Of a stretch of 59,091 bases of DNA, positions 5,493-47,036 are shown piece by piece. Numbering within the stretch: the stretch's first letter is position 1; each line of letters begins with the position of its first letter. A model generated the notes under the pieces. The model saw nothing but the letters and a program-made list of their open reading frames with translations, was not told the DNA's origin and searched no databases. Location of the stretch: positions 1 to 59,091 of the IMG/VR virus record IMGVR_UViG_3300027908_000029, one strand, 5' to 3'. The DNA comes from a virus. The position numbers and the translations under genes are program-made.

Positions 5493-5520
5493 AAACCTGT
5501 AACCTCCCATTCGTTATTAA

Positions 5521-5530
5521 TCGTTAACGA
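5521..5530. promoter_or_regulatory. Palindromic operator TCGTTAACGA (copy 1)
   Basis: A perfect 10-bp palindrome sits in the untranslated leader between the leftward promoter at 5547-5575 and the start codon at 5492. The same word recurs at 5787, 7304 and 7327, with near copies at 5733 and 54460. The position and repetition suggest binding by a dimeric repressor. Confidence 0.6.
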
Positions 5531-5546
5531 ATCGAACTCTGCCCGC

Positions 5547-5575
5547 ACTATGCTCCCTGCCAGTAATCTTGTCAA
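5547..5575 (-). promoter_or_regulatory. Leftward sigma70-like promoter for the early operon
   Basis: On the minus strand a perfect TTGACA (-35; 5570-5575) is followed after 17 bases by CATAGT (-10; 5547-5552). Initiation would fall near 5540, about 50 bases before the start codon at 5492, with the palindrome at 5521 in the leader. The promoter at 7291-7320 uses the same -10 hexamer. Confidence 0.65.
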
Positions 5576-5732
5576 GCTAAATCGCTAGTACTCTCTATCG
5601 ACTGCTCGCGACACTGCCACTGCTACTCCCCTACCACTGCCACTATCCGCCCTGTGCATCTACCACTCGCCGCACTATGCATCTTAGTAATGCCAGATAC
5701 CCACCTGCCAGATGCATCAAACGCAAGGCAGA

Positions 5733-5742
5733 TTGTTAACGA
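5733..5742. promoter_or_regulatory. Operator-like near copy TTGTTAACGA
   Basis: One mismatch from the TCGTTAACGA palindrome, 54 bases from the next perfect copy at 5787. No promoter is evident beside it, so it may be an auxiliary binding site. Confidence 0.4.
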
Positions 5743-5786
5743 TTAGCACCCGTCATCAACCTGCCCTGCCTATGCCGCAACTGTAC

Positions 5787-25006: not shown

Positions 25007-25981
25007 ATGGCAAACTATGGTGATCTACAAGCCGTCACAACGAACTACATCAGTGACGAATTTATCGATTCCTACTTTAAGGTCAGCCCCACGTTTGTCA
25101 AAGTGTGGAAGGGTGGCACTATGGCCAAAGCCTATCCCGGCGGCTATCAGATCCAAGTGCCCTTTCAATACGCGCCTCTCAAAGCAGGCCCGTTCGCGCC
25201 CGGCGGAGTGTTCGACATCTCCTACATTCAGACGCAGACGGCGATGTTGTTCAATCCCAAGTTCAGCTACGCCAATGTCACAGTCCGTCGCACTGACTTG
25301 GCGATCAACCGTGGCTGGCCAGCGGTGATGAATTTCCTGGAGCCGAAGGTGGTGAATGCTGAACAAGCGCTCGCCCAGACTCTGATCACTCAGTTTTTCG
25401 CGGACGGTCAGGGCACAGTGACTCCCGTGATCGCACTCGACGGGATTCTGGCCGGATACGATGACGGCACCAATTACACGTCCTACGGCGGGATCACGCG
25501 GACTTCGATCGCGACAGGCGCGTCCACTGGCATCAACGGATATTTCTTTTCCAACTCGTCCACCAACTGGCCGTTCAGTCTCCAGCAATTACAAGTGGCG
25601 TATGGCCAAGCGACATTCGGCCCGGACCAGCCCAATTTCATCGCTACCACCCAGTCGATCTACAACTCGTTCTGGGCGAAGATGCTGCCGATGCAGCGCA
25701 CATACGAGATCGACCCCGATTTGCAGTCCGCTGGATTCCGCAGCTTCAAGTTCAACGGGATGTCGGTAGTCGTCGATCAGTACTGCCCGAGCGCGACCAT
25801 CTTCGGCATGAACACGGATTACATCGACGCCTATGTCTCAGAGGATCCAGCGTTCAACTTCGGGTTCACCGGATGGAAAGAGTTACCGAACTCGCTGGAC
25901 ATGGCGGCACAGACCGTTTTTGGAGGCAACATCGTCGTGACCGCTCCCCGGCTCGGTTTTGTGATGACGCAGGTTCAGTAA
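25007..25981 (+). CDS. Major capsid protein
   Basis: The 324-residue product starts MANYGDLQAVTTNYISDEF and has the mixed beta-rich pattern of an HK97-fold coat protein. Examples are YPGGYQIQVPFQYAP and, near the C-terminus, GNIVVTAPRLGFVM. A CAGGAG site precedes the ATG. Position after the scaffold-like gene and before a structural gene supports the call. It forms the icosahedral head shell. Confidence 0.88.
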   Translation: MANYGDLQAVTTNYISDEFIDSYFKVSPTFVKVWKGGTMAKAYPGGYQIQVPFQYAPLKAGPFAPGGVFDISYIQTQTAMLFNPKFSYANVTVRRTDLAINRGWPAVMNFLEPKVVNAEQALAQTLITQFFADGQGTVTPVIALDGILAGYDDGTNYTSYGGITRTSIATGASTGINGYFFSNSSTNWPFSLQQLQVAYGQATFGPDQPNFIATTQSIYNSFWAKMLPMQRTYEIDPDLQSAGFRSFKFNGMSVVVDQYCPSATIFGMNTDYIDAYVSEDPAFNFGFTGWKELPNSLDMAAQTVFGGNIVVTAPRLGFVMTQVQ

Positions 25982-30286: not shown

Positions 30287-33200
30287 ATGCACAAACTTAT
30301 CAAACTGGCAATCGCAGTTGCAGCACTCTCGGTATGTGCACTTGCCCAGCAAGGCGGCGGCGGTGGTGGCGGCACGACTCTCCCATCCCCGACTGCATCC
30401 GCTCAGTGTTTCGTGTCCACTGGCACTGCCCAAGGCAACTGGACCTGGGGATCGTGCTCAGGGTCGTCTAATCTTGGGTTTGCGTCCATCACCGCTGGCA
30501 CGAACACCGCAGCGCTGGTAGTCGGCTCTGGCGGTACGCTGACATATACAGGTACAGGCGTTATTGACGCCAATGAAATCCTCAATGTCGCTCTGCCCGC
30601 GATTGCATCTGGCTACCTCAATTACAACGGATCGGCATGGGTGTTCACGAACCCGTTTGCGTCTCCGACGTTCACTGGGACGGTGACGATCTCTGGGCTA
30701 TTGACTGGTTGCATCACCAACACTGCTGGCGTCATCAGCAGCACCGGCACTCCATGCAACAGCCCGTTTGTGTTCCCGGCGACCGCATCCGGCACCACTA
30801 CCTCTGGCGGCGTGACATATTTCAGCTCCACCACGGTGCTGTCATCGTCGGGACTGCTGGCATTCGGTCAATTCGTTCTCGGTGGCGGTGCAGGCGGCGC
30901 TCCCACAACATCATTCTCAGTGGTCCCGCCGGTCAACGGTGGCAGTGGAGTTGCCTCCCCCACAGCCAACGCCGTACCAGTAGCCGAAGGTAGCAGCAAT
31001 TACAACTTCGTCACCACGGCCACCTCCGGCCTGTGCTTTCTATCCAACGGCACTGGCAACGACCCGAGTTTTCAAGCGTGCCCGGCGGGATCGACAGTAT
31101 TTCCGCTGACTATCAGTGGGACTGTCACAAGTGGTGGTATCCCGTATTTCAGTTCCACTACAGTCGAGACATCCTCAGCGCAACTCGCTTCCGGTGCTCT
31201 GGTGGTCGGTGGCGGTGCAGGCGGTGCACCAGCAACAGGCAATGGCGATTTCACATACGCCACACATACTCTGACTGGCGGCGCATCCGGCATTCTCAAT
31301 CTCTCCGCGATGGCAGCGACGGCATTCAAGATCCCGACTGTCGCTGGTGCCGCTCCCACTGCGGATGGAGCGATCGCTACTAACTCGACTACTCACGCGC
31401 TCAACGTCGGCTCAAACGGCAGCACTCTGGTCGAAGCCGTTGCTGCATCCGGTGCGACCAGTGTCAGCACCAATTGTGGCAGCACGAGCACTGTGGTCAC
31501 GGCGATCTCGGGCGCGGCTGCTCCCACCTGCACCTCGATCTCATCCACGTACCTACCAGCCGATGTCGTGTACAACGACACAACGAACACTTACACAGCT
31601 AACTTGCAGTCGTTCGCCGCTGCCACGATGTCCCTGCCTGCGAGTGCGGCCTACGCGCCTACCACCGCAGGCCTATTTGGATACGACTCAACCAATGCTC
31701 GGCTAGTCTTTGGCAACGGCTCCACCACGTCGATCATCCCGTGGTTCACTGGCACTTCCACCAACAATGACTGCGCGGAATACACCGGGACTCTCGGCGC
31801 GCTGACAAGCACGACCTGCGTGTACAAGTTCTCCGGGGATGGCACATTCGCCAGCAACTCGAACTCCACGGGCAATGTCACACTTACGCTCAACACCGCT
31901 GGCTCTCATAAATGGTGGGGGAACAATACTGGGTCCACAGCCGCAGCGGGATACGAAGCCCTCACCACCAGTGACCTGCCTACCATACAGATCTCCGGTG
32001 GCGGCACCAACGCGACATCTGCTGCTGCCGGGCAAGTCCCGAACACGTCCTCGTCATCGGCGTCCGCATGGACAGCATCACCTAATTTTGGCATCAACGG
32101 CACTACAAACGGAGTCCTCAATCTCGCCACCAGCACTGGCGGCGGCGCATACATCAGCATCCTGAATGGCGGCGCAACCTCCGCGTATAACTTCAATCTC
32201 CCTATCACTGTGGGCAGCGCAGGCCAAGTCCTAGCCAGTCAGGGTGGTGGCTCATCCGCGATGACATGGGTCAGTCCACTGACCAATCCAATGACCACTC
32301 TGGGTGACATGATCTACGGCGGGGCAAGCGGAGCAGTCACTCGACTGGCAGGCCCAACTGGTCCCAATGGCATCCCCCAGACCATATGCGAAACTCCCAG
32401 TGCTGGTGCTGCCACTGCCGAGGCATTCTGCATCCCCGGTGTGCCAGTGGATACCTCGAACACTGCCACGATTCCAATCACTGACGACGTGAGCCTGATC
32501 GCGCCGACCACTCTGACCGCTCTGTCTGGCGCGAACATGCTAACGAACAACTATGCGTTCGCAGTGCTCAACGACAACACATCTGCTATCACGTACACTC
32601 CGGCATCGGGACTGGTATACCCGAGCGGCGGCAGCACCCAGATAATCCCGCCATCGTGGTTTACATTCGTGTACACCAACAACACAAACACTTACATGCC
32701 AGTGATGCCGACGATCGCGGCGTTCCCGAATACCAGCACGAATCAAGCACTCGCGTTTAACTCCGCGACTGGAGTGTTGAGCGCGGTGACATACGGCACT
32801 GTGAGTAGTGTTGGACTCACGACTAATTCTGGTTCGTCCTCTGGGATATTTGCGGTCACCGGGTCGCCAGTTACAGGTTCGGGCACGCTCAACTTCAACC
32901 TCTCCGGTACATCCGGTGGCATAGCGTGTTTCACATCGACTACGGTGCTGGCGTCATCGTCGGCTCTCACCGCTAACGCTCTTACAAAGGGCGGTGGTGC
33001 GGGAGTCTGCCCGACGAACTCTGACCTGCAAGAGTCCTCGAATCTCCTCAACAACACTACCAGCACTCAGTCTTGGACTGTCGCTGGCGGCCAAGACGCA
33101 TCCGCTAATTCAGTGCTCGGCGGCATTACTCTGCGCGGCGCGAATGAAACTGGCGCAGGCGGCAGCACATCTGCTGGCGGTGGCGTACTCGTCGCAGGTG

Positions 33201-35392
33201 GCACGAACGCTGCCACAAACGCTGCCAGCCAAGGCGGTAGCATCCAAGTCCTGCCCGGATTGTCCACTGGTGGCACTCAAGGGCTCCAAGGACTCGATGT
33301 ACAAGAATCCGTCTACGTCAAAGGCGCGACCGTCACCCAGTTCAATCTGGAATGCGAGTCCGCCTCCATGACCGTAGTGGACTGCGCGGCTACACCGGGA
33401 AGCTGGCTGGGCATCGCGGAACTCGTCAACTCGAATACCGCTCAGATTGTCACTGATGGCCAGTTCACCGTGAATGCTTCTGCCGCTGTGACTCTCGGGG
33501 ATACTGTGTGCGCTGGTAGCACCGCTGGCAAAGTCACCGACTCCGGTGGGCAGTCGAGTTGCACCAGTGTTCAGGGTTCGACTGTCGGCATTGTCATGGC
33601 CACATCCGGCACATGGGTTCTGCCAGATGGCACCAGCATCACAGCCACGACCACTAAACCTCTAATCCAGATGAACACTGCGACTGTCGGTGGCGGTGGC
33701 GGATCATCGGTGTTCCCACAAACAGTGTCAGGCACGGTGACCAGTGGCGGCATCCCGTATTTTTCCAACTCCACCACGGAGTCCACGTCGGCAGTGCTGG
33801 CGAGCGGAGCTATCGTTGTGGGCGGCGGTGCGGGCGGCGCTCCGACTACTGATTCCAGCGCAACTCTGTCTACGGGTGCATTGAGCCTTGGCGCATCGGG
33901 AACGGCTGGCTCGGTGGCCATGGGGAACGCGACCTCTGGTACGGTGACGTTGCAGCCGGTTACTGGCGCACTGGGCACGGTGACCGCATCGCTGCCGGCG
34001 AACACTGGCACGATCGCAGAACTCAACCTCGCTCAGACATGGACTGCGGTCCAAGCCTTGGGATCATCTACAGCCACGACGCAGTCTCAGTTGGATGGAT
34101 CAACGAAGCTGGCGACGACACTCTACACCGATACCGCAGTGAGTAATGCGGTAGCGGGCGTGAATCCAGCCGTCGCAGTTCTAGCAGCCTCAACCGCAAA
34201 TCTAACAGGAACCTATACACAGGTTGGCGGTGGCGTTGGCGACACATTTACGATCACGGCGACAGGCGCGTTCTCTCTGGATGGAGTGGCGCTGACAACA
34301 GTCGGTCAGAGAGTCTTGTTCAAGAACCAGTCCACGGCATCGCAGAACGGCGTCTATACCGTTACAGTCGCAGGCACCACTGGCATATCCGCTGTGTTTA
34401 CGCGGGCGCTGGATTACGACACGCCTTCGGATGTGAACAACACAGGCTCGATTCCGGTGCAATCGGGAACGGTCAACACGACCACAAGCTGGCTGCTAAC
34501 TTCGCAGGTGACCAGTATCGGTTCGGCTGGATCATCACTCACCTATGCGCAGTTCTCTTACAATCCGGCAAACGTCGCGCTGCTGAATGCGGCTCAGACG
34601 TGGACAGCACTGCAAACTTTCGGCACGAATATCTCTATCGGCGGGCAATCGCTAAGTGGCGGCGTGCAAGGCACCGGAGACACGAAGGTATTGCTGGCTG
34701 GCACCGTATCCGGCACAAGCGCAGCGCTCTGCACAGACGCCAACGGTGGCGCGACGACTTCTAGTTGCCCGAGCGCGACTGGGTCTGTGACTGGCAGCGG
34801 TTTGTCTACAGGTAGTGTCTATTACAACATCGGTGGCACGCTGACTCCGGCGAATGCCTATGGAATCCCATCGGCGCTGACAGTGACATTCACCAACACC
34901 TCATATTCCATCGCTGCTACGAACACGCTTATCGCCGGGGCAGCGGTGCAGTTCCAGACGACGGGCGGACTGCCAACCAACTTCGCAACAGCCACCACCT
35001 ATTACGTTTCGACGGCTGGGTCTAACTGCGTTTCCGTAACCACCAGCGCGTTCTCGGTTTCGGCAACATATGGGGGAGCGTGCATTCAGGCTGGCAGCGC
35101 CGGAACAGGAACGCAGACCATGACCATCGTCCCGACCTTGGTCACGAATCCCGCTTACTGCGTGGCTTCATCCTCGACCGTGTGCGTTTACAGCGGAGCG
35201 ATCACGGGATTAAGTGGATTCACGGCTGGGCAGGTGATCTATGTGTCGGATGCTACGAGTGGTGCGTTGACGCAAGTCAATCCAGCCTCCGTTGCTGGCT
35301 CTAGTGGGCACTTCGTCCAACGCATAGGAGTGGCAACTTCCACTACCGCGATTCTCGTTCAGCCTTCAATGAATGTGCAGACAGTTCAATAG
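30287..35392 (+). CDS. Giant fibre-like protein with signal peptide, 1701 aa
   Basis: The N-terminus MHKLIKLAIAVAALSVCALA is a clear Sec signal, with cleavage expected after ALA (residue 20), followed by a Gly-rich linker. The body is Gly/Ser/Thr-rich with fibre-type motifs such as LLNAAQTWTALQTFG and GQRVLFKNQSTASQNGVYTV. A modular unit of about 48 residues recurs near residues 162, 271 and 1142 (ISGTVTSGGIPYFSSTTVE and GGGAGGAPTT). It looks like a receptor-binding tail fibre, yet it is predicted to be exported, which is unusual for a virion protein. Confidence 0.78.
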   Translation: MHKLIKLAIAVAALSVCALAQQGGGGGGGTTLPSPTASAQCFVSTGTAQGNWTWGSCSGSSNLGFASITAGTNTAALVVGSGGTLTYTGTGVIDANEILNVALPAIASGYLNYNGSAWVFTNPFASPTFTGTVTISGLLTGCITNTAGVISSTGTPCNSPFVFPATASGTTTSGGVTYFSSTTVLSSSGLLAFGQFVLGGGAGGAPTTSFSVVPPVNGGSGVASPTANAVPVAEGSSNYNFVTTATSGLCFLSNGTGNDPSFQACPAGSTVFPLTISGTVTSGGIPYFSSTTVETSSAQLASGALVVGGGAGGAPATGNGDFTYATHTLTGGASGILNLSAMAATAFKIPTVAGAAPTADGAIATNSTTHALNVGSNGSTLVEAVAASGATSVSTNCGSTSTVVTAISGAAAPTCTSISSTYLPADVVYNDTTNTYTANLQSFAAATMSLPASAAYAPTTAGLFGYDSTNARLVFGNGSTTSIIPWFTGTSTNNDCAEYTGTLGALTSTTCVYKFSGDGTFASNSNSTGNVTLTLNTAGSHKWWGNNTGSTAAAGYEALTTSDLPTIQISGGGTNATSAAAGQVPNTSSSSASAWTASPNFGINGTTNGVLNLATSTGGGAYISILNGGATSAYNFNLPITVGSAGQVLASQGGGSSAMTWVSPLTNPMTTLGDMIYGGASGAVTRLAGPTGPNGIPQTICETPSAGAATAEAFCIPGVPVDTSNTATIPITDDVSLIAPTTLTALSGANMLTNNYAFAVLNDNTSAITYTPASGLVYPSGGSTQIIPPSWFTFVYTNNTNTYMPVMPTIAAFPNTSTNQALAFNSATGVLSAVTYGTVSSVGLTTNSGSSSGIFAVTGSPVTGSGTLNFNLSGTSGGIACFTSTTVLASSSALTANALTKGGGAGVCPTNSDLQESSNLLNNTTSTQSWTVAGGQDASANSVLGGITLRGANETGAGGSTSAGGGVLVAGGTNAATNAASQGGSIQVLPGLSTGGTQGLQGLDVQESVYVKGATVTQFNLECESASMTVVDCAATPGSWLGIAELVNSNTAQIVTDGQFTVNASAAVTLGDTVCAGSTAGKVTDSGGQSSCTSVQGSTVGIVMATSGTWVLPDGTSITATTTKPLIQMNTATVGGGGGSSVFPQTVSGTVTSGGIPYFSNSTTESTSAVLASGAIVVGGGAGGAPTTDSSATLSTGALSLGASGTAGSVAMGNATSGTVTLQPVTGALGTVTASLPANTGTIAELNLAQTWTAVQALGSSTATTQSQLDGSTKLATTLYTDTAVSNAVAGVNPAVAVLAASTANLTGTYTQVGGGVGDTFTITATGAFSLDGVALTTVGQRVLFKNQSTASQNGVYTVTVAGTTGISAVFTRALDYDTPSDVNNTGSIPVQSGTVNTTTSWLLTSQVTSIGSAGSSLTYAQFSYNPANVALLNAAQTWTALQTFGTNISIGGQSLSGGVQGTGDTKVLLAGTVSGTSAALCTDANGGATTSSCPSATGSVTGSGLSTGSVYYNIGGTLTPANAYGIPSALTVTFTNTSYSIAATNTLIAGAAVQFQTTGGLPTNFATATTYYVSTAGSNCVSVTTSAFSVSATYGGACIQAGSAGTGTQTMTIVPTLVTNPAYCVASSSTVCVYSGAITGLSGFTAGQVIYVSDATSGALTQVNPASVAGSSGHFVQRIGVATSTTAILVQPSMNVQTVQ

Positions 35393-35401
35393 GAGCAGGG
35401 A

Positions 35402-35485
35402 ATGACGTTTTCCATAATTTTACTTATCGCGGCGGCATGTGTTTTCGTGTTCGGCACATGGTGGATTTTTAGGCCATATAAATGA
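35402..35485 (+). CDS. 27-aa single-span membrane peptide
   Basis: The frame has an AGGAG site and encodes MTFSIILLIAAACVFVFG followed by TWWIFRPYK, one hydrophobic helix with a basic end. Its stop overlaps the next ATG (ATGA). A holin-like or membrane-accessory role is possible; the size alone does not decide. Confidence 0.55.
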   Translation: MTFSIILLIAAACVFVFGTWWIFRPYK

Positions 35486-37599
35486 GACGCGCTCTCTACT
35501 TGATTATCGCGGTGGCCCTGATCTGCGGGGCCAGCACCAAGTCCTTCGCGGCGGGCTGCACCGCGACGGCATACACTGGCTATAACTGCGTTTCCCACGC
35601 CGGGAGTTTTAGCACCAGCGCCACGACTCGGAACCAAACCATCAGCGTTACCGCTGGGGATGCAGTCACCTTCTTCGGCCAAGCATTATCCACTGGGGCA
35701 GCGCTCACCCTCACCGATTCCGGGGCCTGCACGGGAACCTTAGTCGGTGCTTCCACGACCGCTCCCACGACTCCCGCCATCGACATCGGCGCAGTCACCA
35801 AAGCCACGAGCACAGGGACCTGCACAATCACGATGCACTGGGCTGGCTCCGCGACCACGTTGGTTTCTTCAGTCCAAGATTGGCAGGGATGGAACGGAGC
35901 CATTGACGTGTCTGCGGCCATAACGTCCACCACGGGCACGGGCACGCGAAGCGGCCCGAATGTGGTGACGACGCAGAATGGTGATCTGATCCTCTGCATG
36001 ATGGGCGACACCGGAAACAACGGCGGCACGTTCACGGCAGGAAGCGGATTCGCTATCACCCTCGGCAACAATTCGATGTCACAGGAAGCGCAAGTGCAAG
36101 CGACGGCTGGTTCGATCACGCCGGGGTTCACTTATTCGCAGAGTTCTACGTTCGGAGTCATCACGTTTGCGCTCGAATCCTCCAGCGTGCCACCACCAGC
36201 CAGCAACGCGATAACTCAGTGGGATGGCATCGCTCCTGCCCCTGGCCCTGGCGGAATGAACCGCATCGACGGCCAGTACATTAATCCCTCGACTGGATAT
36301 ATCGGCGCAATCAACGGATCAGCCACGCCGTTCAGCGCTTCGCCAGTAACTGAATTCGTGAACTTCAGTGGCGGCACGAATGGCTCCGAGCCTGCGAACA
36401 CCGATCTCGTCAACAGCACGTTTGGGACATCCGGATTCGCTTGGGTGACAACTCAGATCGCGGCGGGGATGACGTACTCCAACGGGACCACGTTCGGAGC
36501 GCTTCCTGAACCTTTCCTTGCCGGGGCTACGGCTTACGGCAGTTCCGGCCCTCTCTCGATGGAGTGCACTTCGTCAACGAATGCCTCGGGGACCGCGACT
36601 TCCTGTGGCAGTGCGACTCTAAGCGTTCCCGGATCTGGGTCATCTGTGTCCGCTGGTTTCTGGTACACAACTCCAAATTGCAACGCGATCAGTACAGTCG
36701 ATTGCGGAGCGCTCGGAATCGTCTCAGGCGGCACCGATTATGTGAACATGCACGTCAACGGAACAGGCGGAAATTGCTCGCAGAACGGATTGTTCCTTGA
36801 AGGTCACGGCGGAAACTCAGTCGGCTGCCTGCCATTCACGAACGGCGCAACCTATCGAGTCAACGGCCAAGAGAATAACGGCGCGGCGGCTTTGACGGTC
36901 ACTTTCACGAATGGCTCGGCTGTGATCTCCGCAACAAATGCGCTCGCAGCGAACGAAGCGATCAAACTCACTACGACCGGAACGCTGCCGACGAATTTCA
37001 CCGTAGGGATTTCCTCCGGAACTTACACGAGCGGAATTACTGCGACTGGATCAATCGGCCAGACCTGCTTGCTTTCGTCTTTCAATGGCTCGGGGAGCGG
37101 CGCGACTGGCGTTCTGTATCTGAACGGAACGAACACGATCAGCGGTGGCAACGGAATATCGTGGACGAATTTCGGCTCAGGCTATACGAGCGCTCCCACA
37201 TCCGCCACGGCAGCGAGCGGGACCGCGACGTGCAGCGGCACGGCTACTATCTCAACCGTGCTGGCAACTCCGATCCTGTTCGTCAGTTCGACTGGCCTCA
37301 GTACCAGCCAGTTTGAACTCGCAACGGCTCAGGGTGGCACGCCAATCGTCGCGGGCAGCGCGGGCAGCGGAACCCACACCGCAACCCAATACGATGTCGT
37401 AACCGTGTGCCAAGTCATCAACTCGAATCTGGTCTACTTGGGCACGCTCTACGCACTGGCGAGCACCGCAGCGCAGGCACCTACGTTCATGCAAATCGGG
37501 GTGTCTGGTGAAGGACCGACCGTGACTGGGTATAACTTTTATTGGGGCGGATATTTCGTGGACGGCACAGGGAAGATTTCTCTGACGGAGTGCTATTGA
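35482..37599 (+). CDS. Exported fibre-like protein, 705 aa
   Basis: MRRALYLIIAVALICGAST and the following KSFA form a Sec signal, with cleavage expected near residue 23. The mature part is Gly/Ser/Thr-rich with many Cys residues. Residues about 470-630 share the module ALTVTFTN...LPTNF...AGSAGSGT with the preceding protein, but with an extra block of about 75 residues inserted. It is coupled to its neighbours (ATGA at the start, TGATG at the end). Confidence 0.75.
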   Translation: MRRALYLIIAVALICGASTKSFAAGCTATAYTGYNCVSHAGSFSTSATTRNQTISVTAGDAVTFFGQALSTGAALTLTDSGACTGTLVGASTTAPTTPAIDIGAVTKATSTGTCTITMHWAGSATTLVSSVQDWQGWNGAIDVSAAITSTTGTGTRSGPNVVTTQNGDLILCMMGDTGNNGGTFTAGSGFAITLGNNSMSQEAQVQATAGSITPGFTYSQSSTFGVITFALESSSVPPPASNAITQWDGIAPAPGPGGMNRIDGQYINPSTGYIGAINGSATPFSASPVTEFVNFSGGTNGSEPANTDLVNSTFGTSGFAWVTTQIAAGMTYSNGTTFGALPEPFLAGATAYGSSGPLSMECTSSTNASGTATSCGSATLSVPGSGSSVSAGFWYTTPNCNAISTVDCGALGIVSGGTDYVNMHVNGTGGNCSQNGLFLEGHGGNSVGCLPFTNGATYRVNGQENNGAAALTVTFTNGSAVISATNALAANEAIKLTTTGTLPTNFTVGISSGTYTSGITATGSIGQTCLLSSFNGSGSGATGVLYLNGTNTISGGNGISWTNFGSGYTSAPTSATAASGTATCSGTATISTVLATPILFVSSTGLSTSQFELATAQGGTPIVAGSAGSGTHTATQYDVVTVCQVINSNLVYLGTLYALASTAAQAPTFMQIGVSGEGPTVTGYNFYWGGYFVDGTGKISLTECY

Positions 37600-40500
37600 T
37601 GAAGCATATCGCCATTTTACTGTTGCTGTCGGCCTCGTGCTTTGCCACGAATTATACGGTGAAATCAGGCGGTGGCGGCAACTACACCACGATCCAAGCC
37701 TGCGCGACGGCTATGGCTGCCGGCGACACCTGCACAGTCTACGCTGGCACATACAATGAATCCCCAACCGTGTCAGCAGGCACGGTCGGCAATTACAAAA
37801 CGATCACCGTTAACGCTTCGGATATCGTGAGCGTCCTCGGATTCACGCTCAACTCGCACACGCAACTCGTCGGGAACTGCCCCACCTTGCAGGGCACGGT
37901 CACCACAGCCAACTGTGGCTTCTTTATCTCGAACACCGCATCTCCGTCCAGCGCGTGCGTGAATCTCCCGAACAGCACCACGGATGTCTATATCCGTTTC
38001 AACGTCATGTACGCCTGCGGCAGCATTGGGCCGGGATACCCGACTCAGACATCGTTCATCTACATTCAAGGCAACACGATGTCTTACACCAATTCGACGA
38101 TTGCCACCGTACCCACCACCTGCGGCGGAAGCGGCTCGCCAGTCGGCAACAGCCTCAACCTGTATGGCAATCACTACCTTGTCGAGAACAACGACTTCTC
38201 CCACTACACGATCTCGCTGAACTGGAATCCAGAGAACTCGATCACCCGGAACAACCATTTCCACGACACGACGGAAGTGAACAACGCGGGTAACTGCCAC
38301 TCGGACACCTGGTTCAGCGATCCGGGCGGCACGAACCTTGTGACGAATTCGTTCAACGTCTACGAAGGAAATTACCAGTACAACGCGGTCGGGCCGAACG
38401 CCAAGGGCACGCTCTTTCAGGCTCCGTCATGCACAGGCTGCGCCTATGCCATCTCCCGCTACAGCGTGGCATCCGGGCTCGGGAGCGGCAACACGACGAA
38501 CGATCAAAACTGGACGAGCGTCAAAGTCTACAACATGACCTGTGTGGACTGCTCCTATCAGGCGGGGTCAGTCAACGGAGAGACCGACAATTCCAGCGAC
38601 ACGAACCCCCCACGGCCCTCGTTTCTGAACCAGATTTACTACTACTCAATCGCCTACACCAGCATCAATCCCTATGCCTGCGGGAACTCGAACAGTTGCA
38701 ATTATGGGCACAGCCTCGCATATTGCTCGGCAGGCTGCACAACGCTTTACGGGCACGTTTATCAGGTAGGACTGTTCACGGCGGACACCGGGAACCAGAT
38801 CGCCAATCCCAACTTCGTGAGCTACGTGGGATACGGAAGCACGTCGAATAACTTCCATCTTCAGTCTGGATCGCCAGCAATCGCGGCGGGCACCTACCTC
38901 ACCACGGTAGGTTCGGGGGATGCTGGTTCGGGCACCACGTTGACGCTGACTGATTCGTCTTACTTTCAGGATGGCTACGGGTTGACCAACGCCTACTCCA
39001 CGGTGAGCGGTGACTGCATCGCAGTGACGACGGTATCGAACACGGTCTGCATCACGGCGGTGAACTATTCGGGCAATACCGTCACTCTAGCAAGTGGAAT
39101 TACGCGCTCCGTGGGTGATCACGTTTGGCTCTATAGCAAGTCAGACGGCGTGCGGGTGCTGACCGGCAGCGCCCCTGACTTGGGAGCCTTCCCATTCACC
39201 AGTGGCAGCGTGAGTTTCACCACAAACCTGTCAACGATTCCGTCCTACCATAGCGGCAACATTCAGATCGCCATCACAGGAAGTGGCACATCTTGGACGA
39301 GCGGCACAACATTCTCGGCAGGCTCTCCCTGCACCTTCGTGAGCAGCACGGTCAACACTGGGGCACAGACCGGCACAGTGACAGTGACCACGTCGTCCTC
39401 GACCGGAAGCTGCACGATCTCGGATTCCACGGATGCGGCAACGGCCTCGGTCACGGTGGCGAATCCTCTGTTCACGATCTCTCCCACTTCAGGCACTCCG
39501 GGCAGCGGCGGCTGCACAACAGCCTGCCAAGCGACCGAAACGTTCACTGGCACCAACACCGTATGGGCGAATCCGGACCAGTCATCCTCGGGACTATTCA
39601 CTCTGAGCGGTGGCACAGGCGCTAGTCTGGGTACAATCACAGTGGTCTCCAACACTTCCGCCACCGCCACTCTGACATGGGGCTCGGCCAGCGGCACCCT
39701 GACTCTGACCGACAGCAGCAACGGAAACAGTTCGTCGAATGTTCAGAATTTCACCGTGCAGGCGATAACCACTCCGACCGTGACCACCGGCACTGCTGGC
39801 AGTTTCACGCCTACCTCAGCGACAATATCCGGTAACACGTACGCTTGCTCTGGCAGTTGTACGACTGTCACTTCCGAAGGCACATGCTACGGACTCAGCG
39901 CGAATCCGACCACTCCGTGCACCAGTGACGGCACGTCCACTCCATGGAACAGTTCTCTGACTGGATTATCGTCGGGCACTCTCTACCACTTCCGGGCATT
40001 CGCTTCGAACTCCGCAGGCACGGCCTATGGCAGCGATGTGACCTTTATGACCCCGATCATGTCCTACATCAAGGGCGCGGGGAATGCCAGTTCCACCGCC
40101 AGTGCCACATGGACATTCAGCTATACACCATCCAACACTAACGACGCGGTCGTCTTTGCCATCTACTGCAACAACGGAACCACCCCCGCAACCTCGGCTA
40201 CTCTAGCTGCCTCGGGATGGACAATCACTCAATTGATTGCTCCGTTGAGTAACGGAACAGGCGCTGGCGTACTGTATGGTGCACTAGCGCCTAATACCTC
40301 AGCGGCTACTTTCACGGTCGGCTTCGGCGCTGTGACCTGCTCCAATTTCTATGGCTACATGATTGGAGAATTTCAGGGGAACACCACATCCAGTCTGGCA
40401 GCGGCCTTTCCGGTGCACGCAAGCTCCGGTGGGACTTCAAGCAATGCTTGTAACCAAACAGCTGCTGGAATCACACCATCAAGTGTCAATAACGCTGTGT

Positions 40501-40763
40501 GGAACGCTTGCTTTGGTGCTCCGACAGTTGCGGCTATCCCTTGGACGGCGGGCGCGGCAGACGGCGGCGGCGGAGATCTCTCTGAGTACCAACTCCTCAG
40601 CGGCAACCCCGGTACGCAGGTTCCAAACTACGGAGGCACCTCCGGGGTATACGTCGTGATGGGGACTGCAATTTCCCCGAATAATCAGATTCAGCCTCCG
40701 GCACCGGGGACTGTTATATTTGCAGGCAATACAATCCAATCGGGAATGGTGAGCAGCAAATGA
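37599..40763 (+). CDS. Exported beta-helix/Ig-like protein, 1054 aa
   Basis: Start at ATG 37599 (TGATG overlap) gives a signal peptide [16 protein letters not shown]; the open frame extends upstream to 37542. Residues about 17-470 have the [20 protein letters not shown] start and the Asn-rich repeats of a right-handed parallel beta-helix. Ig-like and fibronectin-like domains follow (for example [20 protein letters not shown]). The beta-helix suggests a polysaccharide depolymerase. Many Cys pairs fit folding outside the cytoplasm. No catalytic residues can be assigned by eye. Confidence 0.74.
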
Positions 40764-41260
40764 AAAAACTCTTAGCAGTGGTGTTGAGCGCGGGAGCAGT
40801 CGGGGTCATGCTCGGGTTTGTGCTCTCGTCGATGATCATATCGCCACCTGTTCATGCCCAGAACCCTACTCTGTCTCCGTATGAATTCCAAGTCGTATCC
40901 GCTACGCATACGAGTTGTGTAGTCGTGACCGGGGCAACGAGCTACTGCTTTGCGTCTGATGGAGAATACCAGTCGTTGAGCGGTGCAGCGTTTACTCAAC
41001 TAGGGGCTCAGGGGCCGGCGGGTGCAACTGGCGCGACAGGGGCAACGGGTGCCCCGGGGCCAGCCGGGGCCAAGGGAGCCATCGGAGCGCAAGGAATTCA
41101 GGGTGTTCAGGGTATACCGGGTCCGATAGGAGAGACAGGTCCGCCCGGAGCCGCCGGGGCTACCGGGGAGCAAGGGCCTCCGGGCACTATACCTGCATCG
41201 TTCACTTGTACTGGGGCCACGGTTACCTCGACGGGCTTAGCACTCTCTGGATGCCCGTGA
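40760..41260 (+). CDS. Collagen-like exported protein, 166 aa
   Basis: ATGA overlap with the beta-helix gene. A long Sec signal ([19 protein letters not shown], extended, ending PPVHA) precedes a short Cys-containing domain. A Gly-X-Y collagen-like stretch follows (about residues 77-140) and a short Cys-rich tail ends SGCP. Collagen-like stretches usually trimerise fibre stalks. The end of the gene is overlapped antisense by the HNH gene. Confidence 0.8.
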
Positions 41261-41715
41261 ACGTGTTTCCATCGCTTGCCTTGTATCACTTGTCGTATAG
41301 TTCGACGGGACACATGAAACTTCGCAGCCAATGCGCTTTTAGACACACCGAGACTATTGCGTATTTCACGCACTGCTTCGTTTGTCAATTTGGCTCCGAT
41401 ATTATCCTCGCCACGGCTGACCGGAAAGCGTCCTCTAGCGATAGCATCGGCAACATTATCCGCATGGGTTCCCTCAATAATGTGACGCGGGTTTATGCAC
41501 GAGGCGGTATCGCAAGTGTGGCGAGCGAGAGGATTAGGCCAGCGATTGTGACCGAGAAAGAAAACAAGCCGACACGCTGTTATCGTTTTGCCTTTATACC
41601 AGACACGACCATAGCCATCAGCGTCCAAGGAAAATGGCCAGATCAGGCACTCATCGGAGTTGTGGGTCTGAATTGCATTGACGAGGGATTCGTAGCGGGT
41701 ACAATTAGTGAGCAT
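41107..41715 (-). CDS. HNH endonuclease with HTH, reading into the collagen-like gene
   Basis: Start at ATG 41715 has AGGAGGACACCG before it; the open frame runs upstream to 41811. The HNH core is [17 protein letters not shown] with [17 protein letters not shown] and a [11 protein letters not shown] segment. A C-terminal HTH follows ([20 protein letters not shown]). After RWKHV the native protein would be expected to end, but the frame continues as the antisense of the collagen-like gene for about 49 codons. It is a homing-type endonuclease whose insertion appears to have cost it its native stop. Confidence 0.82.
41249..41265. repeat. 17-bp imperfect direct repeat, left copy
   Basis: GGATGCCCGTGAACGTG matches GGATGTCCGTAAACATG at 41821-41837 at 14 of 17 positions. 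In both places the collagen-type frame ends (GGA TGy CCG TrA). The two copies flank the HNH gene. Confidence 0.65.
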
Positions 41716-41790
41716 CGGTGTCCTCCTGAGACATCGTTGTTGGGGCGGATTCGCTGCCGTAAACAGCGGTTCGCCCATTATCCTAACACA

Positions 41791-41832
41791 CAAGGCGCTA
41801 CTGGCGCACAAGAAGTTTCCGGATGTCCGTAA
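41791..41832 (+). pseudogene. Displaced 3' end of a collagen-like gene
   Basis: Read in the collagen frame, this fragment encodes QGATGAQEVSGCP and a TAA stop, matching the Gly-X-Y style and SGCP terminus of the gene ending at 41260. It is separated from that gene by the HNH insertion and has no start. It is probably the remnant of a duplicated or original 3' end. Confidence 0.6.
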
Positions 41833-41837
41833 ACATG
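41821..41837. repeat. 17-bp imperfect direct repeat, right copy
   Basis: The partner of 41249-41265, located at the end of the collagen remnant. It runs into the start codon of the next exported protein (ATG 41835). Confidence 0.65.
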
Positions 41838-43376
41838 AAACGCGCGGTACTCATTGTCGCGGTGATGTGGGTGTTGGCTGTGTCCGCGCCTGCACACGCT
41901 CAAGTCCAAGTCTCCTACGCCGCGACCAATTTGCCCAACACTTTCACAGCGGCGAATAATTTCTCCATCGGCTTGAACTCCGGGCCGCTCACGCTCACTC
42001 AGATCACTGCGCTGACATTCGTCGCTCCCGGCACGATCATCACATGCTCGAATTGCACGACCAACAGCAATCCCTGCACGGTGGGAGCAGCGCAAACCCT
42101 CGCTGTCTATCTCAACGGCGCATGGACGTGCAACTTGGGCGGTGGTGGCGGTGGTGGTGGCAGCGTCAATCCCGGAACGCAATACCAACTACCCATATAC
42201 GCGACCACGGGCAGCGTACTTAGCGCAGATACACTGCTCACTGACAATGGGACTCTACTGGCTTACACGGGGGCCACTGGGATTGCCGCGCCTCAATTTG
42301 GCGTCACTGGCAGCGGGGCATTCACGTTCGGCGGCACCTACGGAAACTTTTCCTCGCCCGGTGCGAATCTCTCCCGTTGCGGATTTGGCATCGGCGGGGT
42401 ATTCTCGTGCTCATTCAACAATGATGCGGTCACCGCAGTGCTACGTTCCGGTGGCGTGGCTGGCACGGACATCACCACTGGTCTGGTTGCGCCACAATAC
42501 ATCGGGAACCTGTCAGCCACATACGTTACGCAAACAGAAGTGGCCAGCGCGAGCGGCGTGGCCAGTCTCGACACCACTGGCAACGTTCCCGCGAATCAAC
42601 TCGGCAACGTCATGGTGGTTGGCAACAACTACGCACTGTTTGCGTTCTGCTCGGGGAATTCCGGCGGCAGCAACTCAGTATTCGTGATGGTCCCGAGCAG
42701 CACTGGCACATCGACCGGATGCAGCACGACCACTGCTTCTGAAATGCCGATCGCCAGCGCCGGCACGATGAAGAATCTGTACGTGAACTCCGTGCACGCC
42801 GGGAGCAATGCCAGCAATGTGGTGTTATACGTGAATGGCTCGGCCACGGCGGTTACATGTTCGATTGCATCCAGTACCACATGCAGCGACACCACTCATA
42901 CAGTAGCCGTGTCTCAGGGCAGCACATGGTCGATCCGGTATGCCCCCGGCGGCACTAGTGACACCGCTCAGGGTATCCACGCCAGCTTCCAAGTCGCCGT
43001 GAGCAGTGGATACACGGAGTTCTCATGGTGTCCGGGGACTGTCGGCACAGCCAACGCCGTCTACGCGCTGCTGCCCGTGACCAGTTCTTATAATTGTGCA
43101 AGCACCGTGGCCACGGAGATGCCGATCCCGGTCACAGGCACAGCGACCAATCTCTATGTAAATGCCGGGACGCAGGGCTCAAATGCCAGCAACGTCACAC
43201 TCTACATCAACGGCGCGGCTACAGCACTGACGTGCTCGATCGGCGCGGCGACCACGTGCAATGACCAGATACATCAGATTCCATTCAACGCGGGGAACAC
43301 TTGGTCTGTGCGCTACGCTCCGGGCGCGGCCAGCGATACTGCCGCGAATATCCAAGTCACTTTTCAGGTGTTTTAG
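41835..43376 (+). CDS. Exported protein with C-terminal tandem repeat, 513 aa
   Basis: Start at ATG 41835 gives the signal MKRAVLIVAVMWVLAVSAP with cleavage after AHA; an in-frame ATG at 41823 lies in the collagen remnant. A Gly-rich linker follows. Two related repeats of about 120 residues end the protein (from residues 266 and 393), sharing EMPI, NLYVNA, ASNVTLYINGAATALTCSI and SVRYAPG. They may be duplicated receptor- or glycan-binding domains. Confidence 0.75.
   Translation: MKRAVLIVAVMWVLAVSAPAHAQVQVSYAATNLPNTFTAANNFSIGLNSGPLTLTQITALTFVAPGTIITCSNCTTNSNPCTVGAAQTLAVYLNGAWTCNLGGGGGGGGSVNPGTQYQLPIYATTGSVLSADTLLTDNGTLLAYTGATGIAAPQFGVTGSGAFTFGGTYGNFSSPGANLSRCGFGIGGVFSCSFNNDAVTAVLRSGGVAGTDITTGLVAPQYIGNLSATYVTQTEVASASGVASLDTTGNVPANQLGNVMVVGNNYALFAFCSGNSGGSNSVFVMVPSSTGTSTGCSTTTASEMPIASAGTMKNLYVNSVHAGSNASNVVLYVNGSATAVTCSIASSTTCSDTTHTVAVSQGSTWSIRYAPGGTSDTAQGIHASFQVAVSSGYTEFSWCPGTVGTANAVYALLPVTSSYNCASTVATEMPIPVTGTATNLYVNAGTQGSNASNVTLYINGAATALTCSIGAATTCNDQIHQIPFNAGNTWSVRYAPGAASDTAANIQVTFQVF
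42630..43373 (+). repeat. Tandem duplication of a ~120-aa domain
   Basis: The copies span about 42630-43007 and 43011-43373 within the 41835 gene. They share spacing and most of the motifs, with several Cys residues in matching places. The duplication is at the protein level and has diverged at the DNA level. Confidence 0.65.
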
Positions 43377-43379
43377 CCC

Positions 43380-45980
43380 ATGCGGAGACTGCTTATATTT
43401 CTACTGCTGTCCGCCAGTTGCCTTGCCCAGAGCACTATCGGCGGCAATGGCGTTCTCGGCGGCAATGGTGCCGGGACCATCTCCCAAGCCCCCGGACTGG
43501 TGATCAACACCACCAGTCTGTTAGCCGGAATCTACGGGATACATTACAGCGCCACTCTGGCTGCCACCGGCGGGAACCCTCCGTATTCATGGTCGGTATT
43601 CACTGGGGCACTACCCACGGGATTGTCGCTCAGTTCCGCTGGCGTTATCAGCGGCACTCCCACGGCTGTCGCCACGTACAATTTCACAGTAAAAGTAGTG
43701 GACTCCAGCTCGCCACAGTTGAATGCCACTCAGCCGCTCACCCTGATCATCTCGGCAGCGAACTGTGGGCCGCCTACATATCCTTGCGCGCGCACCGATC
43801 GCGCGGTGACGTTTTCTGCTACCCAACTCACCAACATGTGCCCGCCGCAGGCCGGAGTCAATCCGTGCACACCGGGAATCAACGGCCAGTCGCTGATCAA
43901 CACTGGCTGGCTGTATGGCCGCAACACGATCATGACAGACCCGAATTACAACAACATTCAAATGGTCAGACTGGTTGACTATAGTGACACCCAGCCGCCG
44001 TATAATTGTCCCGGCCCGACCGCTGGTCCCGGTGGGTCTGCCGAAGAAAACATCTGGAGTTCGGACAAGCAATATGTCCTGATCGGCTGTAACAATGGCG
44101 GCACGCGGCTTCTGCATTTCAATCCCACCACATTGCAAGTCGCAGTAGTAAACGCCCTGACTACCAGCCCAGTGGCTTCTCCGGGGAGCGCAACGATCAC
44201 CACCAACAACACAACGTATATGCAGGTCAACGTGCCACAACTAGTCGATCCCGGAGCTAGCCAAGAGTTTGTCACACCCACAGCGGTGAACGCAGGAGTG
44301 TCATTCACAGCAGTATTTGCCAATACACATCTGAGCGGCGCAAAAGTCACCAGTCAAGGCTACGTCGCGGGCTGGACTGGCACCAATTGCACCTACTGTA
44401 TGCCTTCCGGCGGGGAATTCGATTATGTCACGGCAGACACATTTTACTCTCTGATCGGCTACCAGATCGAAGAGTTCACGATCTCGAACGCGCTGGCATC
44501 CAGTGGCACCGTGGTTGCGGATTTCTCTTACGGCGTGCCTTGCTGGCGGAACTCCTGTCCCGATTGGTCAGGCGGCGGGAACTGGACAGCGGGCACAGTG
44601 CTTTTGCCACTCACCAATAATCCCGCGAATGACGCTTTTCAACTAATGAACACCAGCACTCTCCCGTGTGCCAAAGGGGCCACGAATCCGAACTGGGCGA
44701 GCACGACTCTCACGATCATCACGGATGGCGCGTGCAGCTTCGTGAACGCCGGACCAGTCAATATTGCCAGTCCTACGTTTATCACCCATTCCTATCCCGG
44801 CGTGGTCAGTCACAGCGGTCAGCAGTGGGCAGCGGGACTCGCCAACTTCCAGGGGGACGGCGGCGCGGGCTCGATGCACGTGGTCTATTACAACTCAGCC
44901 ACGCACACGTATTACTACCACAACAGCGCAACAGGAGCGGTGTTTACGACTGTGTGCTCTGGCGGCACTGGCCCTACCTGTTCTGGTGGTTCATTCTCTG
45001 GTCCGACGTTCCAGTCCTACATCATCCCCGGATCGGCTACGTGTACTCCGGCCAGTCCCACATGCCAAGACCTTACACTCCTGCATAACGTGAAAATCGC
45101 CAAAGACGGCATCCATATCACCGTTGGCCCACAGAAGTGCGCGTTCGCCACGGTGCAATGCCCAGTCATCGGCGGCGGGAATATCTATTTCTGGGACACG
45201 GCAACTGGCGTTCAGTACTGGCCGGATGTATCCCCAGGACATCACGCCAGCGGATACGCCTACCTGTTCGCGGAGAGCGGATATACATCGGCCAACCCTT
45301 ACTATTATTCATTCGGGATTCCATTTGCGTCCACCGGGACTCTGCAAAAATACTGGAACGCCCGGCAGACTCCGCCTGCGATATGTTCGCCAATTGCGTG
45401 TGGTACGAATTCTCCGTTTGACTACCATACCTCTGCGGTAGCTGAGAACTCTAGTGACACGTCCTCGATCTGCGGGGCGACGCTCTCAAATAATTACGGC
45501 AACTGGCCTTACAATTACCCCTATTTTGGAGAGGTATTCTGCTACGCCACCGATGGCAGCAACACGGTGTGGCGCGAGGGTCTGAGCTACAACAGCGAAG
45601 CGAACGTCGGATTCAATACCTGGGCGAACGTCGGCGGACTCAGCTCGGACGGGTCGCTCTGGGCGAACAGTACTGACTGGTGGAACACTCTGGGGTCCAC
45701 CAAGGGATTGACGAGTTGTCTCGGCGGATTCAACTGGCAGCCGATGAACACGTACAATCTGAATGATCTCATCGCGCCGGGCACGAACAACGGTCCTGCC
45801 GCCGGCGCTGGAGTGTTTCAGGCTACGAGCTGCACAGGGGGAGTGTGTACTACTGGTTCAAAGCATCCGGTGTGGACATCGGGGGTCGGTAATTCCCCGC
45901 CGCAGGATGGCACGGTCACTTGGACGAACATTGGTACGAATAGTTGCAATCCGACGATTGTGGTATACAAGCTCAACTAG
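43380..45980 (+). CDS. Exported He_PIG/propeller-like protein, 866 aa
   Basis: MRRLLIFLLLSASCLA is a Sec signal almost the same as that of the 37599 protein. Residues about 40-120 match a putative-Ig (He_PIG-like) domain: GIHYSATLAATGGNPPYSWS and LPTGLSLSSAGVISGTPTAV. The rest is Cys-rich and beta-rich, with propeller-like segments such as SSDKQYVLIGCNNGGTRLLH. Around thirty cysteines fit an extracytoplasmic protein. Function unknown; surface adhesion or fibre. Confidence 0.74.
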   Translation: MRRLLIFLLLSASCLAQSTIGGNGVLGGNGAGTISQAPGLVINTTSLLAGIYGIHYSATLAATGGNPPYSWSVFTGALPTGLSLSSAGVISGTPTAVATYNFTVKVVDSSSPQLNATQPLTLIISAANCGPPTYPCARTDRAVTFSATQLTNMCPPQAGVNPCTPGINGQSLINTGWLYGRNTIMTDPNYNNIQMVRLVDYSDTQPPYNCPGPTAGPGGSAEENIWSSDKQYVLIGCNNGGTRLLHFNPTTLQVAVVNALTTSPVASPGSATITTNNTTYMQVNVPQLVDPGASQEFVTPTAVNAGVSFTAVFANTHLSGAKVTSQGYVAGWTGTNCTYCMPSGGEFDYVTADTFYSLIGYQIEEFTISNALASSGTVVADFSYGVPCWRNSCPDWSGGGNWTAGTVLLPLTNNPANDAFQLMNTSTLPCAKGATNPNWASTTLTIITDGACSFVNAGPVNIASPTFITHSYPGVVSHSGQQWAAGLANFQGDGGAGSMHVVYYNSATHTYYYHNSATGAVFTTVCSGGTGPTCSGGSFSGPTFQSYIIPGSATCTPASPTCQDLTLLHNVKIAKDGIHITVGPQKCAFATVQCPVIGGGNIYFWDTATGVQYWPDVSPGHHASGYAYLFAESGYTSANPYYYSFGIPFASTGTLQKYWNARQTPPAICSPIACGTNSPFDYHTSAVAENSSDTSSICGATLSNNYGNWPYNYPYFGEVFCYATDGSNTVWREGLSYNSEANVGFNTWANVGGLSSDGSLWANSTDWWNTLGSTKGLTSCLGGFNWQPMNTYNLNDLIAPGTNNGPAAGAGVFQATSCTGGVCTTGSKHPVWTSGVGNSPPQDGTVTWTNIGTNSCNPTIVVYKLN

Positions 45981-45989
45981 CAGTCCATT

Positions 45990-47036
45990 ATGGGTATCCC
46001 AATTCCCAATCTCGTGTATCTGCTGGCGATGGACGGGACTGTCTGGGTGCCTGGGATTTCCAACACCGGGATTGCTACGACTACCGAGATGGCCGTGCCC
46101 AGTGGATCGAGTGCTGTCCCGTGGTATGAGTTGAACGACGCAGTGACTGGTGTGACATATCGACTGGTTGTGCAGCCGTGTCCGACAGTGCCGAGTGGGC
46201 CACAGGGCGAGTTGCATATCGACCAGACGACGCCGAATTCCAGCGCCCCGGTGCAATTGCTGGTGAGTGCGCCGAACGCAACCGTATATTTTCTTCAGAT
46301 CGCTGATGGGATCTTACAGTCCGGCTTGGCGACTCCTGCGAGTGCAAGTTGCAACACTCCTATTCGTATTCTCGCCGATCATGTGCTGGAGCGCCTCGAA
46401 GATCCGACAGGTATATTTTGGAATCGACGCTTGGAAGTCTACTCGGCAATTGTCGAGGCGTTAAACGATCTCACCATTCTAGTCGGTCGGCCTGTCATGG
46501 GTGTGCAGCTCATATTCAATCTGCAACCGAATTCCGTATGGCAGTTTTTGCCTAAAGGTTTCCTGTGCTTGACTGACATCTACGGGCCGCAGTCCCTGCT
46601 CCGGAAGCAAACTCTGTTCGACTACGATTACATCCAGTTCAATTCCGGCTCTGGATGGGAGAACGAGAACTCTACATCAGGCCCGACCACATGGGCTCCT
46701 CTGGGCACGAACATGTTCATCGTGCACCCATCAGCAGGAGCGGCGCAACAGGTGCTGTTGAATGCCATCCTCTACCCGGTGGCCGCAGCATGGCCGTATG
46801 CAGGTTCAGAAGTGGTGCCGTTTCACCACGAATTCTTCGCCGCCATTGAGTCGTATGCCGCGCACATTCTCAGGTTCAAAGAATCAGGCCCGGATTTTCA
46901 GTCCTCAATGACTCTGTACGGCGACTACCTCGCGCAAGCCGAGCGCATGAGTGTCATCGAAACACGCAAAGATCCAATACTCTGGTCGAGATCGTTTGGT
47001 ACAATGTTCGGGCCGAACCAAATTCCGAAGAGGTGA
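45990..47036 (+). CDS. Connector/collar-like virion protein, 348 aa
   Basis: No signal peptide; the return to an unsignalled product marks the end of the exported cassette. The C-terminal half has DHVLERLEDPTGIFW and LEVYSAIVEALNDLTILVG, typical of phage adaptor-type proteins. The N-terminus contains a beta domain. The 47418 protein may be a distant relative. Exact role unknown. Confidence 0.7.
   Translation: MGIPIPNLVYLLAMDGTVWVPGISNTGIATTTEMAVPSGSSAVPWYELNDAVTGVTYRLVVQPCPTVPSGPQGELHIDQTTPNSSAPVQLLVSAPNATVYFLQIADGILQSGLATPASASCNTPIRILADHVLERLEDPTGIFWNRRLEVYSAIVEALNDLTILVGRPVMGVQLIFNLQPNSVWQFLPKGFLCLTDIYGPQSLLRKQTLFDYDYIQFNSGSGWENENSTSGPTTWAPLGTNMFIVHPSAGAAQQVLLNAILYPVAAAWPYAGSEVVPFHHEFFAAIESYAAHILRFKESGPDFQSSMTLYGDYLAQAERMSVIETRKDPILWSRSFGTMFGPNQIPKR

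Follow-up and report, generated by a model that had tools for sequence, protein, structure and literature searches.

Signal-bearing fibre-like genes suggest that viruses of soil Acidobacteria export their host-recognition fibres, which would fold outside the cytoplasm before they join the particle or without ever doing so

Why would six fibre-like genes of a tailed phage each begin with a secretion signal? To our knowledge, the tail fibres and tailspikes of Caudoviricetes fold in the cytoplasm and carry no signal peptide, yet all six genes of the cassette described here depart from this usual property. The cassette lies in a 59,091-base IMG/VR virus record, the whole of which is referred to as the window. 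Besides a terminase (17301-19544) and a portal gene (20120-22003), the window contains the features listed below, in which an arrow marks the predicted cleavage site; genes are subsequently named by their first coordinate.

25007-25981, plus strand: major capsid protein (phrog_9953, E 3e-26), which served to trace the phage lineage
29662-30279, plus strand: conserved structural gene, upstream boundary of the cassette; no signal peptide; 42-64% identity in relatives
30287-35392, plus strand: candidate fibre gene 1, 1701 aa; predicted signal peptide 30287-30346, MHKLIKLAIAVAALSVCALA followed by QQ (cleavage ALA↓QQ); 24 mature Cys
35482-37599, plus strand: candidate fibre/surface gene 2, 705 aa; predicted signal peptide 35482-35550, ...STKSFA↓AGC; 15 mature Cys
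37599-40763, plus strand: candidate fibre/spike gene 3, 1054 aa; predicted signal peptide 37599-37646, cleavage CFA↓TN; 30 mature Cys
40760-41260, plus strand: candidate collagen-like fibre gene 4, 166 aa; predicted signal peptide 40760-40858, ...ISPPVHA↓QN; collagen repeat at residues 85-142
41107-41811, minus strand: ORF between candidate fibre genes 4 and 5, in which an HNH-like motif was recognised by eye and an HTH by a domain match (HTH_3, E 3.5e-5)
41835-43376, plus strand: candidate fibre gene 5, 513 aa; predicted signal peptide 41835-41900, MKRAVLIVAVMWVLAVSAPAHA followed by QV (cleavage AHA↓QV)
43380-45980, plus strand: candidate fibre/adhesin gene 6, 866 aa; predicted signal peptide 43380-43427, MRRLLIFLLLSASCLA followed by QS (cleavage CLA↓QS); 26 mature Cys
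45990-47036, plus strand: SU10-type adaptor protein, downstream boundary of the cassette; no signal peptide; PF24175, E 2.8e-5, just under the Pfam cut-off

Because the window encodes a terminase, a portal, a major capsid protein and an SU10-type adaptor, its gene content assigns it to an uncultivated, podovirus-like member of the Caudoviricetes. The capsid protein is 72-99% identical to proteins in 16 other viral loci. A contig from an uncultured Acidobacteria genome encodes a counterpart with 57% identity, and identity falls to about 25% in the isolated podoviruses Tunturi 1 and 2, the hosts of which are described in the text of PMC11924767 as Tunturiibacter, an Acidobacteriota genus. A distant capsid protein is common to the window, Stenotrophomonas phage BUCT555 and Bradyrhizobium phage ppBjS10J-1. 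We infer that the host is very probably an acidobacterium. The adaptor shows 38-71% identity to its counterparts in relatives; its extra N-terminal domain of about 120 aa (45990-46350) is absent in several of them, and part of this domain weakly matches a second structural gene (the 47418 homologue) in the related genome G006.

According to a sequence-only reading of the window, each of the six genes starts with a Sec signal peptide and the neighbouring structural genes do not. Both claims held when signals were scored with a home-made rule (not SignalP) that combines n-region charge, an uncharged hydrophobic core and the -3/-1 rule. All six ORFs exist and, with a basic n-region, a hydrophobic core and small residues at -3 and -1, scored 8.4-12.0, while none of the 27 other late plus-strand ORFs of at least 110 aa in the window reached 8.4; the next-best scorers were short membrane-like ORFs. 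The six genes had also been called consecutive, which is correct for the plus strand (the start of 37599 overlaps the stop of 35482, and 41835 has an alternative start at 41823). Overall they are not, as the minus-strand ORF 41107-41811, which overlaps the end of the collagen-like gene 40760, separates 40760 from 41835. This ORF is a probable homing endonuclease, outside the cassette's function. The LLLSASC core said to be common to 37599 and 43380 is real, yet the two proteins have no similarity to each other. The Cys in this core, with S at -3, does not fit the lipobox ([LVI][ASTVI][GAS]C at the cleavage site), and in other signals the residue that precedes Cys (-1) is V or I. The lipoprotein reading was therefore rejected, and signal peptidase I is preferred. 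It is thus well supported by these features that the six genes encode pre-proteins of the Sec/signal peptidase I type, for which export is predicted.

The same cassette was sought in related phages by comparing the capsid-to-adaptor stretch of related contigs, further ones being found via the conserved gene 29662 and gene 27748. At the same or the matching spot in further contigs of the lineage, nearly all genes of fibre size bear a signal: four in G001, three each in G002, L034, L054 and L064, two each in L036, L040 and L041, one each in G008, L045 and L008, and two in G006 with one more after the adaptor. Across 16 sequences the score threshold was passed by 34 of 42 cassette ORFs vs. 6 of 211 others, with alternative starts allowed in both groups (Fisher p 2e-28, ignoring relatedness). 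On these counts, chance is excluded as the origin of the predicted signals, the cassette bodies themselves being mostly not homologous across the 16 sequences. The eight cassette ORFs that failed are mostly near-threshold (8.2, 8.3), truncated or spurious; two of the genes, L064 14250-14711 and gp15 of Tunturi 1, may genuinely lack a signal. Two of the six passing ORFs from outside the cassette are fibre-like (G006 14535, and gp111 of phage Tunturi 4 with an upstream start).

Three relatives (G165, G166 and G167) have no fibre gene between the 29662 homologue and the adaptor. Whole-record scans revealed signal-bearing, Cys-rich genes elsewhere in all three: two of 2051 and 685 aa in G165, one of 1470 aa in G167 and, running into the end of the contig, one of at least 451 aa in G166. 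The predicted signal thus appears to go with the fibre-like genes wherever they lie in the genome, and each of the relatives checked has at least one such gene. Orthologues keep the signal and the residues after its cleavage site despite low identity. In 30287 the signal precedes a Gly-rich mature N-terminus, and at the position of this gene, the first of the cassette, a signal peptide followed by Q(Q)xGGGG recurs in relatives. Separately, an extra 142-aa protein with a strong predicted signal peptide was noted among the capsid-proximal structural genes of G001 (L020, reverse complement, 5333-5761).

Signals were also detected in isolated phages of Tunturiibacter that belong to three unrelated kinds (Tunturi 1/2, 4 and 5). 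In the podovirus Tunturi 1 they are found on gp12, gp13, gp14, gp16 and gp17, a gene cassette that recurs in Tunturi 2. The siphovirus Tunturi 4 carries them on gp113 and gp114, and on gp111 too if an upstream TTG start is used, while in the jumbo myovirus Tunturi 5 they occur on gp337, gp341 and gp342 (annotated tail fibres) and on gp338 (virion protein). These four phages resemble the window in having the same kind of signal-bearing fibre genes; they differ from it in that the capsid protein of Tunturi 1 and 2 is so distant (25% identity) and that Tunturi 4 and 5 are of other morphologies. No signals were found on the fibres of Tunturi 3, a podovirus of the same host strain as Tunturi 1 and 2, nor on the large tail genes of seven control phages (T4, T7, P22, crAss001, phi38:1, BUCT555 and ppBjS10J-1). 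In this small sample the trait appears to track acidobacterial hosts, not one phage lineage, and not to be obligatory: since Tunturi 3 manages without signals on the strain that Tunturi 1 and 2 infect, the host would not require export. The text of PMC11924767 mentions neither signal peptides nor virion proteomics for the Tunturi phages.

Some further observations concern these isolates. The start of the tail fibre gene gp111 of Tunturi 4 (L028, PP885687) is annotated at 30433, probably downstream of the true one: translation from an in-frame TTG at 30076 would give the protein a signal peptide in the style of gp113. Right behind the cleavage site, Tunturi 5 gp337 and gp341 have the motif PNLxLxxPxxxxxxWGP, which resembles the N-terminus of the signal-less Tunturi 4 gp112 (PNYGLTKPDVGTDDWGP) and which we read as a putative virion-attachment motif. 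Away from their tail modules, Tunturi 3 and Tunturi 5 have smaller signal-bearing or lipoprotein-like genes (L026 36898-37707; Tunturi_5, PP885688, 67194-104402), which are possible host-surface modifiers.

Are the cassette proteins fibres? Compared with G001 and G002, nearly all late genes of the window are conserved over most of their length, with the exception of the cassette and, in G002, of gene 48593. Hypervariability in the late module is therefore concentrated mainly in the cassette, as one would anticipate for receptor-binding proteins. A conserved N-terminus on an exchanged body, a pattern typical of fibres, was seen in 41835 and partly in 30287, and not in the other four genes. The first 100 aa of 41835, signal included, are common with fibres of G001 (54%) and G002 (44%), and the remainder is unrelated; its C-terminal part contains two repeats, the Cys quartets of which correspond (272/296/342/350 and 399/421/467/475). 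Residues 821-1049 of 37599 match a cassette protein of G006.

Domain searches of the cassette proteins of these phages revealed collagen, He_PIG, beta-helix/pectate-lyase, GDSL esterase, LamG, ASH-type Ig, Big_2 and CBM-like domains, of which the beta-helix and GDSL domains were found in relatives' cassettes and collagen and He_PIG in the window. Pfam and PHROG searches returned no match for 30287, 35482 and 37599. The He_PIG Ig-like domain of 43380 (residues 52-122, window 43533-43745) has counterparts in large acidobacterial proteins, where Ig domains occur as repeats (about 50-55% identity), and in the major tail proteins of Gordonia and Rhodococcus phages (42-52% identity). Matches to 43380 were confined to this region in host genomes, and to Ig-like regions of other phage tail proteins in the phage collection, where 30287 had no match. 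With 43380 and 41835 as queries, scans of the viral collections yielded no relatives. A sequence search against solved structures gave nothing meaningful for 37599 or 43380, and single-sequence AlphaFold2 models of 37599 (residues 17-560) and 43380 (125-866) had a pLDDT of 32-33, with no usable fold.

The sequence-only reading had offered three alternatives, namely exported surface-modifying factors, exported decoys, or virion parts assembled in an unusual place. The last fits best, because the cassette is the main hypervariable block, because domains of the spike type (beta-helix, GDSL esterase, collagen, Ig-like) are encoded in cassettes of this sort and because a Tunturi_5 signal directly precedes the motif that resembles a fibre N-terminus. 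The other two survive as the strongest rival, though we consider it an unlikely one: the proteins would be exported and folded outside the cytoplasm and yet not belong to the virion, being secreted depolymerases or esterases, superinfection-blocking surface coats or decoys produced from the late operon. All support for export counts equally for such proteins, exported phage proteins of this kind are known (Lom), and beta-helix, GDSL and host-like Ig domains would suit secreted enzymes or adhesins. On the other hand, at least one such gene in each relative checked, variability concentrated in this block, conserved N-termini on swapped bodies in several of the proteins and the position of the Tunturi 5 motif right after the signal all argue for fibres, as do the GenBank labels of several signal-bearing proteins (tail fibre, spike or virion protein), which are predictions only.

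The cleavage sites and the cysteines bear on whether the signals would be removed. Gln occupies position +1 in 31 of 38 phage fibres with hand-assigned sites and in 22 of 34 by an automatic pattern. A (small)-x-(A/G)↓Q site is present in 15 of 16 acidobacterial signal-bearing outer-membrane proteins found via PF13620 and in 7 of 11 members of a second acidobacterial exported family. Gauged in this way against acidobacterial proteins alone, the predicted signals of the phage fibres resemble host ones (A-x-A↓Q). Of 38 fibres, 32 have an even number of mature Cys; among the 35 that contain at least four Cys the count is likewise 32 (binomial p 4e-7), with cleavage sites set by hand from A-x-A↓Q, not from parity, and with some proteins sharing N-terminal domains. 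Among phage proteins that lack a signal and have at least four Cys, 38 of 69 are even (Fisher p 1.4e-4 vs. the fibres). Held-out complete fibres with at least four Cys were all even (7/7; 34, 20, 32, 8, 4, 34 and 28), and a held-out fibre with three Cys is odd; gene 35482, with its 15 mature Cys, is one of the parity exceptions. Even numbers are what complete disulfide pairing outside the cytoplasm predicts. When the Cys of the signal peptides are counted in, even numbers drop from 32 to 27 of the 38, which is consistent with cleavage and favours a cleaved signal.

The mature proteins had been described as cysteine-rich, and so they are: the six of the window contain 1.4-3.1% Cys and the median for cassettes is 2.4%, vs. 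0.70% for non-cassette ORFs of the same loci. A generic host property of the kind "Cys-rich because exported" was rejected as the reason, since host outer-membrane proteins have a median of just 0.34%. The fibres of Tunturi 3 contain 0-0.85% Cys. VKOR, an oxidative-folding enzyme, is encoded in 18 of 31 acidobacterial genomes searched.

These data render it improbable that the signals stay uncleaved, either anchoring the fibres at the inner membrane for membrane assembly or providing a hydrophobic peptide for attachment within the tail. The hydrophobic N-termini could act as anchors, and paired Cys could still form if the body were periplasmic. Yet an anchor needs no host-type cleavage site, such as the prevalent Gln at +1, and parity is better without the signal-peptide Cys; a purely intravirion peptide would leave the Cys pattern unexplained.

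More doubtful still is that the signals are vestigial, that is, idle leftovers of captured host genes for secreted proteins, with the fibres folding in the cytoplasm as usual. The host-like look of the signals and the resemblance of the 43380 Ig-like domain to host Ig domains agree with capture; as the whole story, however, capture was rejected, because the Ig region is the sole part of 43380 that host genomes match. Conservation already disfavours idle signals: the bodies are swapped, yet both the relatives checked and unrelated phages keep the signals, and neither even Cys counts nor a high Cys content are expected of cytoplasmic proteins. Least credible of all is an artefact of misplaced start codons or of hydrophobic stretches in Ala/Gly/Ser/Thr-rich proteins: the scoring is rule-based and some genes need a non-ATG or internal start (such as the TTG of Tunturi 4 gp111), but so few neighbours (6/211) pass the same test with alternative starts open to both groups, and orthologues retain the signal and post-cleavage residues at low identity.

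We thus favour, with a probability of roughly 0.58, the explanation that the six genes encode variable receptor-binding fibres or spikes that leave the cytoplasm via Sec, fold in the periplasm and become attached to virions no earlier than lysis. In an Acidobacteriota-infecting podovirus of this type, the fibres or spikes would be made as Sec pre-proteins and exported by the host Sec machinery late in infection; signal peptidase I would cut off the signal, in most cases leaving Gln as the first mature residue, and disulfides would form in the mature chains in the periplasm. The fibres would then join virions once lysis mixes cytoplasm and periplasm. Attachment to the tails at or after lysis is proposed because capsids are packed in the cytoplasm. 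What the sequences supply directly are the signals, their host-type cleavage sites, their conservation, including in unrelated acidobacterial phages, the even Cys numbers and the hypervariability, and these support, well beyond the evidence of the sequence-only reading, the export and oxidative folding put forward there. From them we infer actual export and cleavage, fibre function, virion membership and attachment at or after lysis.

The broader proposal, for which we judge the odds to be even, is that many tailed phages of Acidobacteriota finish their virions outside the cytoplasm, with Sec-exported fibres that are disulfide-bonded in the periplasm and attached at or after lysis, a route that podo-, sipho- and myoviruses of this one host phylum would each have taken up independently. 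The accepted view is that tailed phages complete their assembly in the cytoplasm; if the proposal is true, one component of the virion would arise in another compartment and be added late. Where and when tail fibres attach would become testable in existing isolates (Tunturi 1, 4 and 5). The proposal may also explain why soil-phage fibre genes can resemble host secreted proteins and be given wrong start codons, and a signal peptide together with an even Cys count would offer a simple screen for receptor-binding proteins in soil viromes.

In the open-access literature searched, we found no report of signal-bearing tail fibres in tailed phages. Virion proteins with signals (filamentous phages) and exported host-modifying phage proteins (Lom) are already known, so that the new element would be signal-bearing fibres in tailed phages. 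The coat proteins pIII and pVIII of the filamentous phage M13 are virion proteins with a cleaved Sec signal peptide, and pIII is disulfide-bonded in the periplasm. The cassette proteins would share the Sec signal peptide of this route. Filamentous phages are, however, unrelated and non-lytic and assemble in the membrane during extrusion, whereas phages of the window's kind are tailed and have a terminase, a portal and a major capsid protein. Lambda Lom and Bor and T5 Llp are likewise products of phage genes with signal peptides near tail genes, and Lom is placed between tail spike and fibre genes in the text of PMC12309495. They are small outer-membrane or lipoprotein modifiers of the host; in contrast, the cassette comprises large, variable, fibre-like proteins with no lipobox and up to six per genome. 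There is also a likeness to the tail fibres and tailspikes of Caudoviricetes, such as T7 gp17 and P22 gp9: these too are large repetitive proteins of the late module and hypervariable among relatives. Their conserved N-terminus with a variable body and their beta-helix, GDSL, collagen and Ig-like domains recur in some proteins of the cassettes of the window and its relatives, but the cassette proteins differ from them in their Sec signals and even Cys numbers.
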